Below are positions 581 to 61,400 of a stretch of DNA of 64,000 nucleotides, piece by piece (position 1 is the stretch's first letter; each line of letters starts with the position of its first letter). The stretch is from Tetradesmus obliquus (lineage: Eukaryota; Chlorophyta; Chlorophyceae; Sphaeropleales; Scenedesmaceae). The position numbers and the translations under genes were made by a program. The notes under the pieces are model-generated. The model had not been told where the DNA came from. It ran no database searches and saw only the letters and a program-made list of their open reading frames with translations. The stretch spans positions 1,922,001 through 1,986,000 of the forward strand of contig CP126206.1 of the NCBI GenBank assembly GCA_030272155.1, in the 5' to 3' direction.

Positions 581-3500
581 ATGGTCAAACTCAGCAGCAA
601 GGCAGCTGCACTCGCGGCGCTCGGCCTGCTGCTGCTGTGTGGACAGCTGGCTCCAGCAGCAGCAGGCCGCGGGGCCAGGCTGCAGCGGCGCTCTCTCCTG
701 CAAGAGACAAACCCCATCCTGCCACAGCCGGACTTTGGTCCAAGGATTGAGGGCCCTGGACAGATCGGCTCTGTGTCTCAGGGCCTGCGCACAGCAATCA
801 ATGACCTGTCTGCCCGTGAGTGACCTGGCAGCAATTTCAGTAGCACACCATAGATGCTGTATTGGTAGTACGATACGGGTGACATCATGTGGTGCACTGA
901 TGCTGGGATGTCATGTGGGGGCTGGTGGGCATAGCAAAGCTGCCACAGCTAGCTACAGCCTGTCACAGCTAGCTACAGCTGCCACAGCTGGCTACAGCTA
1001 GCTACAGCTACAGCTGCCGCAGCCAGCTAAAGCTGCCACAGCTAGCTGTGGCCTGGTCACAAGTAGCTACTACCGCATACTAAGCCCATATGTCTATCTG
1101 CAGTAGAGGATGCAGCATACACGACTCATGCAGCTGGCCTTGTTTGTGTCAGTAGCGTTGCTGCTGCGGCTAGCAGCAGTCTGGTTCGGCAGCATCGCAC
1201 TCTTGAGAGCATGTATGATGCCATCTGCTGTCAGCCGCAGCCAGCCAAATACTAGGCTGGTGGCATGCATGCACATGCGTTTATACATGCGTATAGGGTG
1301 CCACAGCCTGCCAGGTGTGTCAGTATGTCTGTCACATGCCAGGTGCTGGGTTCTGGCAGCTCGGCGGCTGCAATGCAGTCCTCATCAGTTCCAGGCATCA
1401 GCAGCAACACCAAGCACTCAACCAACCCAACCGCCTGACTCTAAACCCTGCCTCTCTTGCTACATCAAAACCATTGCGTGCAGAGGTGCCGCGCATTGGC
1501 TCTTCGGCCCTCACCAGACCGCCACCACCGGTGACAGCCAAGCGCAGCGCTGGCAGTCTGTATCCAGGATCAACACGCTGCCTCTAATACCTTTGGGCAA
1601 CCCGTCTTTCCTCTTGCAATTCACCTTCTGCTATCTTTGCTGTCTTGTTTTTCCTGCAAACATGCAGAGGTGCCGCGCATTGGCTCGTCTGCCCTCACCC
1701 AGACAGCCACCACTGGTGACACCCAAACGCAGCGCCGCCAGTCTGTTTCCTGGATCAACACGCTGCCGCTCCTCTTCTCACTCCGTCTCAACCCAAGCAA
1801 TGTACAAACTCCCTTCCTTTCTTTCACAGCCCTGAACCCTGCTTTTGTGCTGCGCTCAACCCATCCTTTCTCCTCTGCTGTGTTGTTTCTATGCTGCCAA
1901 ACCCTGCAGAGGTGCCGCGCATTGGCTCTTCTGCCCTCACACAGACCGCCACCACTGGCGACACCCAAGCGCAGCGCCGCCAGTCTGTGTCCTGGATCAA
2001 CACGCTGCCGCTGCTCACTTCCGGCATCACTGAAGGAGGAGCAGCAGCAAATGTGACAGGGGAGGGCCGGCTGGCGAGTGCGGTGCTGGATGACAGGAGT
2101 GTGTCTGTGGCCAAGGGCATCGTATCCGACAACGGCAAGGATGGTGAGTGCTGTACAAATACCAATTTAGCTGATGGTGTGCGTCATCAGGCTGCCGACA
2201 ATGATGCTGCAGTGACTGCGGCTGCACAGCCTGCGTGTTTCTGCGTGCCCCAAATGCAGTAATAGCAAAGCAAGCTAGCATTTGGCCGCCCAGCCGCGCA
2301 CCTGGTCTGTTGTTTTGGCGAGGGCCGGCTGGCGAGTGCGGTGCTGGATGACAGGAGTGTGTCTGTTGCCAAGGGCATCGTGTCTGACAAATGGCATCCA
2401 AGGATGGTGAGTGATGTACGATAGCTTTCTGTCAGCTGTCTATCAACTACAGCAAGTATGCTGTTGGTTCGTGACTGCAGCTGTACAAGGAGTGCGTGTG
2501 CCAGCATGATCAATGCCGTTGAGGCAAATGGCCGCCACGCCGCGCCTCTGGTCTGTGTATTTGACGAGGGCCGGCTGGCGAGTGCAGTGCTGGATGGCAG
2601 GAGCGTGTCTGTTGCCAAGGGCATCGTGTCTGACAACGGCAAGGATGGTGAGTGATGTGAAAATACCATTTTAGCTTATGATGTGCGTTGGCAGGCTGCC
2701 AGTGACTGCGGCTGCACAAACAGGGTGTTTCTAGGTGCGTGAATTGCAACAGTAACAAATCCAACTCGCATTTGGCCGCCCGGTCGCGCATCTGGTATTT
2801 GGCGAGGCCGGCTGGCCAGTGTGTCTGTTGCCAGGGGTATCGTGTCTGGCAACGGCAAGGATGGTGGGTGGCGTGCAGGCTCTCAACATTGCAGCTCACT
2901 CTAGTGCTGCCCACACTAAGGCCGCAAGTTGTGAATTGGTGCAACAGTTGCTGCTGCACATTCGCTTAGCCCTTGGACCTGAACCGTGGGCCGTGCGTCC
3001 AGCGCGCAAGGATTGAGGATTGAGCGGCAGGTGACGGCCAGCAGGCAGGCATAGAGCAGCGTCTGTTGCACGCCACCTTCTCCCGCTGGACGCACCCGAT
3101 CTGTACAAACCACAGCTCTGCTGCACACCCCGCTGATTCCTGCTGTGCCTGCTCTGCTGCTCTGCTGTTTCTCTCTCCTACCTTTTGCAGCCAAGACGCT
3201 CGGCTCTGCAGCCAGTGCACAAGGAGCGAGCATTGTGCAGGCAGGCGATGGTCAGCAGGCAGGCACAGAGCTGCGTCTATTGCACACCACCTTCTCCCGC
3301 TGAATGCACCTGATTTGTAAAAAACAAAGCTCTGCTGCACACCCCGCTGAATCCTGCTGTGACTGCTCTGTTGTTTCTCTCTCCCACCTTTTTTTTCTGC
3401 AGCCAAGACGCTTGGCTCTGCAGCCAGTGCGCAAGGCGTGAGCATTGCGCAGGCAGGCGACGGCCAGCAGGCAGGCACAGAGCTTCGCGCACGCACCGTG

Positions 3501-58400: not shown

Positions 58401-61400
58401 GTTTCAGACGCGTAAGAGTGTGCAGCATGTGTGCAGGATTCAGGCCCATCAGCAGGCAACAGCAACACTACCAAATATGAACTTCGTGCAACACGAATGA
58501 TCAGCTGCACGCACCTGTTGCACCAGCGCGACTGTTGCGCGCGGGGCACGCCTTCCCCCCTCAGCGCCACCACAGCAGCATGCATTACGCCCACCACCTC
58601 ACTTCAATGCTGGAGGTCACTCCAATGCTGAAGGGTGAGACATACACTATGCCGTATATACGAAGACTAATCAAAGTACCACAAGATGTCATGCATTCCA
58701 AAGGTAAACTAGTTTTGGATGAAACACCCCCAATGCAAACCTCCGTTGCCAATTGAATGTACACAACATAGTGCTGCTGCACCACGCACCTGCTGCACCA
58801 GTGCGGCTGTCAGAGCACGTGGCACGCCCGCCCCCCTCAGCGCCACCACAGCAGCATGCATCACGCCCACCACCTCACTCCAGCTCCTGTAACACAGCAG
58901 CGCAGCCTCTGCTTCCGCTGCTGATGCTGCAGCAGCACCTGCAACAGCAGCGCCAGCTGGCGGGCTGCGGGGGGAGTCCCTGCCGCTGCTGAGCCTGCTG
59001 CTGCCGTTGCTGCTGCTGCTGCTGCTGCTGCTGCTGCTGTCAGGCTGGTGCATCAGGCTGTCAGGACCTGCTGTCAGGCCAGCCTGACCTGTCAGGCCCA
59101 GGCTGTCAGGACCAGCCCTCAGGCCAGCCTGACCTGTCAGGCTGCTGTCAGGACCCACCAGGCCGCTGCTGTCAGGACCTCCCAGTGTTGTCAGGCCCGG
59201 GTGTACCATGCAGTCCGACAGCAATGGTGCCAGCCGCCGCTTGAGCTGGTCCCTCAGCAGCATGAAGCTGCGCTGCACCAAGCTGTCCAAGCACAGCAGC
59301 AGCACCTGCAGCGACGCTGGCGCTGCTGCTGCTGCTGCTGCTGCTGCTGTGTGATCGGCAGTAATCGGCTGCTGGGAGCTGCTCACCACATCACTGGTGG
59401 TTGTGATTGTGCTGCTGCTGCCATCATCCTCATCTCGAATTTCACCACTGGCGCCATGCTGCAACTGCTGCTGCTGCTGCTGCTGCTGGGCTGGGGTTTT
59501 GCCCCAGCCCTTAAACCGCTTGCCCAGTGCCTGCAAGCCCCCCTGCAGCCCACCCATGTGACCCACCCTGTCCGCCAGCTGCTGCTGCAGCTCCCCAACC
59601 CGCCGCCGTGCTGCTGTCATGACTTCGCCTGCTATGGTGCGGCCGCCGCCGGCGCGGTTCTGCACCGCTGCTGCTGCTGCCAGCTGCGGGTTGGTGGTCT
59701 TCAGCAGTAGGCACAGCAGGACTGCTGATACAGTGAGCCTGTGGAGGCAGGAAGCACATGGAGGCAACAACACAGTAGGTTTCACAAACCGTCTACGTCC
59801 ATTGTGTTGGGCAGGGGCCAGATTCAGCAGTAGCAGGCTGGGCTGCTTTGCGCACAGTAGTGCGCAAGGAGATGCAGCAGATGTAACCCAAGCTGTTGCA
59901 GTGCTGCATATACTAGTTGCCTGCTTACACATGCTGCATGCATTGCCACCGGCATCACCAGCAGGCCACGTGGCACTGCAGGCCCGCCACCTCAGCAGGC
60001 GCTGATGTAACCAAATCCATGCTAAGATAACATACTGCTGTTAACTAAGTCTCGCTTGGAACAGCTGTGTACGCCTCAAATGCCTATGACTGACTATACC
60101 TGGCAATTTATGACGAACTGCCACATCACCAGAATCCGCAAAAGATTCGAAACAAAAGAAGCTTTCAGCTGGCCTCACCAGTAGGCCACGTGGCACTGCA
60201 GGCCCGCCACCTCAGCAGGCGCCGACTCATCCTCCAGGCTCAGTTGCTGCGGCGGCAGCAACAGCAGCAGCAGCAGCAGCAGCAGCAACGGCCTGAGTTT
60301 GTGTGCAGGTTCAAGAACAAAGGGCAGCAGCGGCGATCTGCAGGATAGACTGTTATGGTTGGCAGCAGCAACAGGCCGCGGGTGACTGTTTGGGGTGCTG
60401 CAGCGCTGGCTCCTGCCACATGCACATGCTTGCCGCACAGCTCGGTATGCTTGCTGCCGGTTGGCATTCAGAGTCGGTACATTGTTGTTGACAATTACAT
60501 AAGCAGATATCTTGATCATCTTGGAAGGACTGCTGCGGCGCACACCTGTGGCAGCAGCCACGCGAGCTGGTCTAGCACTGGTGCATTGTCACCCTTAGAT
60601 AGCAGTCTGGACACGCGAAACAATGGCAAGATGAGTCTCTGCATTGCATACCTGAGGCAGCAGGCATGCGAGCTGGTCTAGCACCGGTGCATTCTCAGCT
60701 GTCAGCACGCCCCACTGCTGGAAGCACCTGCGGTTGGTAGGAACAGAACGGTAGCAAGCAACAAGATGAAGCAGTGTGCCTGGCAGCAGCTGACAGTATA
60801 GGCGCATGTACTGCAGTCATTACCTGCCACAACTGCGTTGCTTGCCCTGTTATGCAGCGAGCATCATGTCAGCTGGTGTGTGGTCAATGAGCTGCCATCT
60901 GGGGGCAATGCAGCCGTACAGCAGCACACAGCAACACAGGTTGACCAACTTTGACCGACGTTGACCAACTGCACAACAGACAGTACGTCCTGCTGCTCCA
61001 GCTTGAGCAGCAGCCGCACAGCTGACCTGCAACATTCACAACAGCAACAGCAGCACACCTGAACAACACTGCTGGGAGCCCGCCTTCACATCAAAACACA
61101 ACAGCCGGTCACAACAGCAGCAGCAGCAGCAGCAGCAGCAGCAGCAGCAGCAGCGCTGCAACAGGCCTGCCATGATGCAAACCAGCAGCTGCAGCACAGC
61201 AGCCAGCACAAGCTGCTGCTCCAGCTTCCTCAGCAGCAGCCACACTGTAACAAAATCCCCAACTCACAGCAGTGCAAGTAGCACAGAGTAACCCGAGTCA
61301 AACCCCACTCACCGCAGCAGCAGCAGCGCAGCAACAGGCCTGCCTTGATGGAAGCCTAGCGGCTGCAACACCGCAGCTAACACACGCTGCTGCTCCAGCT

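Follow-up and report, generated by a model that had tools for sequence, protein, structure and literature searches.

The origin of new intron sequence is an old open question, and the closest described systems include several tandem duplications. The report on a potato RNA-dependent RNA polymerase (RdRp) gene describes, in the part that bears on the matter, a tandem genomic duplication across an intron-exon boundary (PMC4974935). A model of intron gain invokes tandem duplication of AGGT-containing exon segments (PMC3443670), and small tandem duplications are described in human and mouse cells as arising via fill-in at breaks with 3' overhangs (PMC8355091). The available portion of a further source deals mainly with organelle genomes and holds nothing on exon copies (PMC5966456). 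As far as the consulted text of these sources extends, the precedent is exon-edge tandem duplication as a single case (PMC4974935) together with general models; no description of it as a genome-wide habit was found in the literature searched, most subscription journals lying outside its scope. Here we analyse a 64-kb stretch of the genome of the green alga Tetradesmus obliquus (contig 16, CP126206.1, positions 1,922,001 to 1,986,000; hereafter the window), in which copies of exon edges with their splice sites, here called echoes, lie in the introns beside their exons. We propose, with a probability of about 0.7, that echoes arise by recurrent short tandem duplication across exon edges, which would be tolerated because splicing keeps to the outer sites.

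Exon-edge copies in neighbouring introns are a real phenomenon of the window. Self-comparison gave 83 direct and 5 inverted pairs of similar segments; among the direct pairs, 80 have an offset below 1 kb. With simple repeats masked, 38 local arrays make up 26.5% of the window: donors are straddled by 12 and acceptors by 10, 7 are internal to introns, 7 lie in modelled intergenic sequence, and 2 have exon at both edges. When 14 of the 38 raw junction rows had been dropped, 24 of the 106 junctions modelled in the window (14 donors and 10 acceptors) retained echoes, with 50 aligned same-strand copies comprising exon edge plus splice site. These copies are 49 distinct segments, 46 of them clean once two segments on the functional exon of a neighbouring junction and one in a CAG tract are removed. 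An earlier note, made from the sequence alone, had claimed such copies and counted more than 35, and both statements are borne out.

The assembly comprises 104.66 Mb in 17 contigs. A systematic sample of 20 loci of 10 kb each was taken at whole-megabase points of contigs 1-3 only; to it were added four kinase loci (L030-L033), picked by homology and not systematically, and nine further small loci with 28 modelled introns. Gene models came from a self-trained gene finder, which learned the motifs CAG/GTGAG for donors and TGCAG/G for acceptors (slash at the splice point) and at a penalty of -15 gave 276 introns and 552 predicted junctions. Of three penalties tried (-11, -13 and -15), -15 underlies the counts, -13 served to check array placement, and -11 was applied once, in the test of far-end splice sites. 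In the -11 models an echo junction was called an exon boundary in 12 of 48 cases, and in the window the gene finder several times took echoes for exons, which is visible because the modelled proteins show repeated peptide segments. A hand-made list of miscalled echoes or low-complexity sequence, 17 of 65 junction rows (14 in the window and 3 at sample locus L012), was dropped from the analyses of gaps, echo-to-echo differences, insertions and deletions (indels), offset modulo 3, intron halves, intron lengths, far-end sites and neutral donor decay. No rows were dropped for the side and strand counts, the junction counts of the sample, array coverage, random placement, spaced copies and copy-end statistics. 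Two acceptors of the DIL gene that were kept are echoes themselves; they were moved only in the corrected third-position ratio of the window, and their model positions stay in all other counts, sample figures being unaffected.

The side on which copies lie was counted within 1.5 kb of every junction. For the 276 donors, junction-spanning copies were found downstream at 30 and upstream at 10; for the 276 acceptors, upstream at 21 and downstream at 11. In the raw counts of the window, copies accompany 17 of the 53 donors and as many of the 53 acceptors, and 17 of these 34 junctions have one also or only on the other side, many through miscalled echoes. No junction-spanning copy of any of the 552 junctions occurred on the opposite strand or in foreign target loci, which leads us to reject chance similarity; non-spanning matches arose in both controls, at 1-4 junctions per category. 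The smallest offset is 93-146 bp in 46 of 73 arrays and 213-275 bp in 11 of 73, in line with the 100-250 bp unit previously claimed. As contiguous duplication requires, the nearest copy rarely ends short of the junction (at least 4 bp inside the exon in only 6 of 70 cases, miscalled junctions counted too), and copy ends often lie 2-14 bp into the intron. Introns with echoes have a median length of 678 bp in the window, compared with 275 bp for those without.

The order of the copies follows from geometry. A tandem duplication across a donor would leave exon, donor and intron followed by a second exon edge, donor and intron, and the protein would stay the same only with the first donor in use, which puts the spare copy downstream; at acceptors the mirror image would hold. 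Tandem-duplication geometry and purifying selection therefore suffice for the order, and no special rule is needed. In the models the functional copy is the outermost, and the copies are local, lie on the same strand and run on into the splice site without a break. This geometry is what local tandem duplication over exon-intron boundaries would give, and duplication of short tandem units at exon edges has good support.

The RRM gene on the forward strand illustrates this arrangement. Its functional RRM exon (10187..10485, RRM_1 by Pfam) ends ...FVRFASEEAAAAAAE at donor 10486 and is followed by a donor-side array (10345..11264, offset 263 bp) with three echoes after the functional copy; the acceptor-side array of the next exon (11455..11830) has two echoes ahead of the functional acceptor 11751. 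Read along the intron from 10485 to 11751, the three donor-side echoes (10609-11264) come first and the two acceptor-side echoes (11452-11700) second. The annotated RRM protein of Scenedesmus sp. NREL 46B-D3 (P0001, a full-length match at 64% identity) has the RRM exon contiguous with the exon at 11751 and reads ...YGFVRFGSKEAAAAAEQAMNGVELDGRAIRV... straight across the echo-filled intron; it contains no echo segment of the RRM gene. In this one gene, the protein of a relative skips the echoes.

The phenomenon is not confined to the window. In the sample, junction-spanning copies accompany 17 of 186 donors (15 downstream only, 1 on both sides and 1 upstream only) and 10 of 186 acceptors (8 upstream only, 1 on both sides and 1 downstream only), so that 23 of 27 echo-bearing junctions have copies on the claimed side only; two of the 23, a donor and an acceptor, fall in a single long coding repeat at L014 (offset 1395) and do not count as echoes. 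Of the four exceptions, two are junctions in a 137-bp array (L012), one comes from a pair of similar predicted exons in L026, and one is an array in L026 that reaches into an exon. For the strict order stated in the earlier note, the word 'always' is too strong. The L012 array (L012:2627-2959) has 100% identity and holds a whole predicted 95-bp exon with both splice sites; a whole exon may have been duplicated very recently here, or the array may reflect the assembly.

Echo load varies among loci. Arrays cover 5.9% of the sample and none of the four kinase loci, where 0 of 37 donors and 0 of 37 acceptors have copies, and the empty kinase loci indicate that loci differ strongly. In the sample, arrays are clumped, with a range of 0 to 8 in 10 kb, a mean of 1.75 and a variance of 4.4. 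About one sample intron in nine (21 of 186) bears an echo; 17 of these introns have donor echoes and 7 have acceptor echoes, and 3 have both kinds against 0.64 expected. Sample introns with an echo are also longer, with a median of 463 versus 297 bp (P 2e-5). Only two arrays occur in the 28 introns of the nine small loci, both straddling junctions; they lie at L005:98-330 and L005:1212-1427, one of acceptor type and one of donor type, with offsets of 127 and 112 bp. The window is a hot spot with a signal stronger than average, and the word 'pervasive' used of it earlier fits it and not the sample.

In the gene models of the window, echoes occur in the first gene (secreted-type), the RRM gene, a small reverse-strand gene at 23.9-25.2 kb known from its gene model only, and the DCAF8, acid phosphatase and DIL genes; Pfam recognises RRM_1, protein kinase, WD40, His_Phos_2, DIL and bZIP domains in the translations. 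The gene list first put forward holds for the first gene, RRM, DCAF8, phosphatase and DIL. It fails for the kinase of the window, whose exons (13995-16974) have no array, and the listed DUF2177 open reading frame (ORF; 37371-37679, reverse strand, by Pfam), whose exons lie outside the gene models, overlaps the end of an array at 37195-37453. On the forward strand, an acceptor-side array (1479..2016, modelled acceptor 1910, two echoes at 1479-1585 and 1657-1774) precedes a donor-side array (2059..2870, modelled donor 2144, three echoes), downstream of which lies another acceptor-side array (2999..3487, modelled acceptor 3403, two echoes). Further donor-side arrays are found at 12263..12854 (forward strand, modelled donor 12321, three echoes, offset 157 bp) and at 24864..25120 (reverse strand, modelled donor 25068, two echoes, offset 99 bp). 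Back on the forward strand, an acceptor-side spaced echo (28866..29053, exon start 28995) consists of 59 bp of exon plus TGCAG and then gives way to unrelated intron; it is followed by a donor-side array (29068..29355, modelled donor 29105, two echoes) and by three donor-side echoes at 29735..30303 (exon end 29789).

The DCAF8 gene (forward strand, WD40 by Pfam) has a donor-side array with three echoes at an offset of 143 bp (32864..33401, exon ending at 32951) and an acceptor-side echo (33621..33944, modelled acceptor 33868, echo at 33621-33706), so that in the intron 32952-33867 the three donor-side echoes precede the acceptor-side one. Within the array 32864-33401, intron sequence is present at nearly the same identity as the exon half. 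Read by eye, the functional exon at 32900-32951 shows a cluster of mainly synonymous differences from the echoes, and this cluster adjoins exon and intron stretches nearly identical to echoes 1 and 2, a pattern resembling a conversion patch. Farther along, at 33942..34532 (forward strand), copies are common to donor 34043 and acceptor 34467, the segment 34226-34280 being counted for both. In the acid phosphatase gene (His_Phos_2 by Pfam; arrays at 39951..41418, forward strand, which include the repeated exon copies), a complete 138-bp exon is repeated, modelled at 40321-40458 and 41025-41162 with similar sequence. Here the repeat takes in a whole exon and not only an edge; either copy may be the functional one, and the two 138-bp exons are possibly a mutually exclusive pair. 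A further acceptor-side array lies at 42401..42925 (forward strand, modelled acceptor 42869, two echoes, offset 107 bp).

In the reverse-strand DIL gene (DIL by Pfam), the gene finder twice picked an echo as acceptor (55932 and 58130), the functional acceptors lying, by the DIL reading, one unit further in. The acceptor-side array 55736..56262, in which the model uses 55932, has its functional acceptor near 55821 in the DIL reading, and the same intron has a donor-side array at 56468..56814 (modelled donor 56755, two echoes). In the acceptor-side array 57948..58459, where the model uses 58130, the DIL reading places the functional acceptor near 58007, and a donor-side echo occupies 58508..58882 of the same intron (modelled donor 58790). 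A donor-side spaced echo at 59951..60225 (reverse strand, modelled donor 60179) consists of 47 bp of exon and 8 bp of donor at 94.5% identity, and a search of the genome with its 165-bp spacer returned nothing but the spacer. Elsewhere in the window, tandem arrays with 136-bp and 22-bp units and best pairs 97-99% identical lie at 6907-8161 and 21791-21992 in modelled intergenic sequence, many CAG/CTG-type trinucleotide tracts are spread across it, and the translations show long Q, A, S and L runs.

Recurrent duplication tolerated by splicing would work as follows. Short DNA stretches, with offsets mostly of 93-146 bp, would be duplicated head to tail by a break, fill-in or slippage event, many of them straddling a splice junction. 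The gene would keep using the outermost copy, that is, the first donor or the last acceptor, and the spare exon edge, splice site included, would be left inside the intron as an echo that splicing ignores. Repeated rounds would produce arrays and longer introns while the main protein seems unchanged, and exon-echo exchange or faster intron turnover may be why the exon half can still be recognised once its intron half has been lost.

Several results weigh against this proposal in its simplest form. The exon models are the gene finder's own calls, with some echoes among them. Beyond that, three results exceed simple duplication: an excess of arrays at junctions, exon halves that outlive intron halves, and a third-position excess found in the window only. 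On these tests the earlier claim that the pattern is the exact product expected of repeated local tandem duplication fails, while its geometry stands. Against a null in which the same units were placed at random in the sample and wholly exonic placements rejected, 26 junction arrays were observed and 11.4 (standard deviation 2.7) expected, and 4 intron-internal arrays against 16.2 expected. Donors carry most of the excess (17 versus 5.5 expected); acceptor arrays alone (9 versus 5.9 expected, P 0.12) are not significant. In all 26 sample arrays the adjacent exon has a positive coding score, given by the same model that called the exon. Since a functional exon is frozen, its echoes should remain detectable longer, and a decay simulation was therefore made with 2600 duplications, measured indel rates, real introns and the same detection. 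It yielded a junction share of 0.489 (353 of 722 detected gene-internal arrays), compared with the observed 26 of 30 (0.87). A bias to old arrays as the source of this share was rejected because divergence at codon positions 1 and 2 is lower among the observed pairs (0.047 and 0.070) than among those simulated (0.088 and 0.087). At matched exon identity the intron half is lost in 17 of 24 sample echoes against 5.4 expected, and in 27 of 48 echoes against 11.1 expected when sample and window are combined, a loss for which decay at a later stage, exchange or filler may account. Many pairs are spaced copies, mostly tens of exon bases and a few to about 30 intron bases followed by unrelated sequence. 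Residual intron homology exists overall (mean score 11.2 versus 6.2 in controls, 33 pairs), but most of the sharpest pairs show little or none. A separate set of forced intron alignments may be inflated by incomplete final copies and carries little of the argument.

The coding signal divides window and sample. In the sample, the ratio of differences at third to those at other codon positions is 2.04 (95% confidence interval (CI) 1.30-3.16), compatible with neutral echoes, for which 1.58 was simulated and about 2 is the most expected in principle. In the window the ratio also counts against the proposal, at 3.89 (95% CI 2.76-5.61) with the two DIL acceptors moved; it was 3.44 (2.34-4.95) before that correction and is 4.58 (3.13-6.77) without four doubtful junctions. 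Echo-to-echo differences by codon position, 113:87:214, lean the same way. Sample echoes thus look neutral and window echoes show a coding-like pattern, which may stem from exon sequence copied in series, from the movement of synonymous patches among copies, or from genuine use of certain echoes. More broadly, exchange anchored in the exon, rapid turnover of introns, targeted duplication and partial use are the candidates for the junction excess, the survival of exon halves and the coding-like divergence of the window.

The alternative that survives best, a credible one still short of an even chance, is exon-anchored exchange, in which gene conversion would refresh the exon half and its splice site while intron flanks drift and intron-only duplications vanish from view. 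It would extend recurrent duplication rather than exclude it, and it would explain both the early loss of intron halves and the excess of junction arrays. Should echoes hand synonymous patches to the exon, it would also account for the excess at third positions in the window. The DCAF8 synonymous cluster, lying beside stretches nearly identical to echoes 1 and 2, is the kind of trace such exchange might leave. The sharpest spaced pairs speak against it, having little residual intron homology, so that the original intron half there has to be presumed.

Somewhat doubtful, and held tentatively, is the reading that duplications fall at random places and that faster intron decay and detection limits alone produce the junction excess and the loss of intron halves. 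Indels per substitution are threefold higher in the intron parts of echoes than in the exon parts (0.257 vs 0.080), and alignable intron parts underestimate intron turnover; both points favour this reading. The simulation, however, gives a share of 0.49 and 5.4 losses and not 0.87 and 17, and the third-position excess of the window is left unexplained.

That duplication is targeted to junctions, by transcription- or splicing-linked damage and fill-in or filler repair of the exon edge, seems unlikely. The junction excess does persist among arrays with a pair at least 93% identical (9 of 12 gene-internal arrays on junctions, P 0.018 for an expected share of 0.425), numerous copies end 2-14 bp into the intron, and the three spacers searched are unique. 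The breaks themselves are only putative, and some full arrays hold intron sequence at nearly the same identity.

It is improbable that some echoes are functional alternative exons or splice sites, although the low estimate first given to this reading was raised slightly on the higher corrected ratio of the window. In its favour are the third-position excess in the window and between echoes, the scarcity of indels in exon halves, echo donors that are still donor-like, and the whole 138-bp phosphatase exon, where real use of copies appears most likely. As a group, the far-end splice sites of echoes are no better than random intron windows, with median scores of 2.70 for partner sites of donor echoes versus 2.46 for random windows and -0.80 versus 0.96 for acceptor echoes; 4 of 32 donor echoes and 3 of 16 acceptor echoes exceed the 90th percentile of controls. 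On this ground cassette exons were rejected as the general case, the phosphatase 138-bp copies being a possible exception, and extension exons were rejected on the even distribution of offsets modulo 3 (15:18:15). Gap columns that are not a multiple of three occur in 15 of 48 pairs, with no such gaps in 33. The stop codons in echoes, 4 seen against 9.0 (standard deviation 2.8) or 5.6 (2.1) expected, decide nothing. GT is kept in 26 of 27 scored echo donors (5 of 32 unscored), compared with 23.4-24.4 predicted by neutral decay at an echo divergence of 0.05-0.07 (P 0.11-0.24), and retention becomes significant only at an echo divergence of 0.09-0.12 (P 0.04-0.01). A former result of better-than-neutral retention (26 of 27 versus 19.4, P 0.001) was withdrawn, having used the divergence of pairs and not the echo's own rate. 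Donor retention within the neutral range at that rate gives no backing to the 'reservoir of competing splice sites' proposed in the earlier note.

Introner-like mobile elements or an assembly artefact can practically be dismissed: introners are reported in 5% of searched species in the part of the survey consulted (PMC9860276), but in the 104.7-Mb genome none of the three spacers searched has a match other than itself, and the DCAF8 array has none outside its own place (the search, which covered three spacers and one array, skips simple repeats and very common words), which leads us to reject introners and elements with long target duplications. Most copies differ by several percent or more, unlike misassembly, although a few (L012, L017) are 100% identical.

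Since echoes occur at many degrees of divergence, they make it possible to measure how introns grow, how spare splice sites decay and how exon and intron copies exchange sequence. Annotators are warned that a gene finder can take echoes for exons and so invent duplicated protein segments. Rather unlikely, in our estimate, is the lineage-wide possibility that junctions are preferred or self-maintaining sites of duplication, at which exon edges seed and refresh echoes and receive synonymous patches back. If true, introns would lengthen outward from their exons by about 93-146 bp at a time, and genes with echoes would have a shifting supply of splice sites ready for use.

Compared with known systems, the alga resembles the potato RdRp case in its local direct duplication of an intron end and the start of the next exon, with splice signals inherited, as that case is described in the text consulted (PMC4974935). 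The potato duplication is a single instance, and its copy became the boundary of a new intron that is used, whereas the alga has many copies, of only putative use, on both sides of exons. With the AGGT model, to the extent that the available text sets it out, it shares tandem duplication as raw material for splice sites (PMC3443670); by our deduction from that model the upstream exon end would be copied before a new acceptor, whereas in the alga copies follow the donor and existing introns grow. Fill-in at breaks is a known route to small tandem duplications in the portion of that work seen here (PMC8355091), and the likeness of the alga is one of analogy, the action of fill-in there and any preference of it for exon edges being only presumed. 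The genome-wide addition of intronic sequence recalls introners, which in the part of the survey that bears on this form dispersed families (PMC9860276), whereas the spacers and the array of the alga that were searched matched only themselves.

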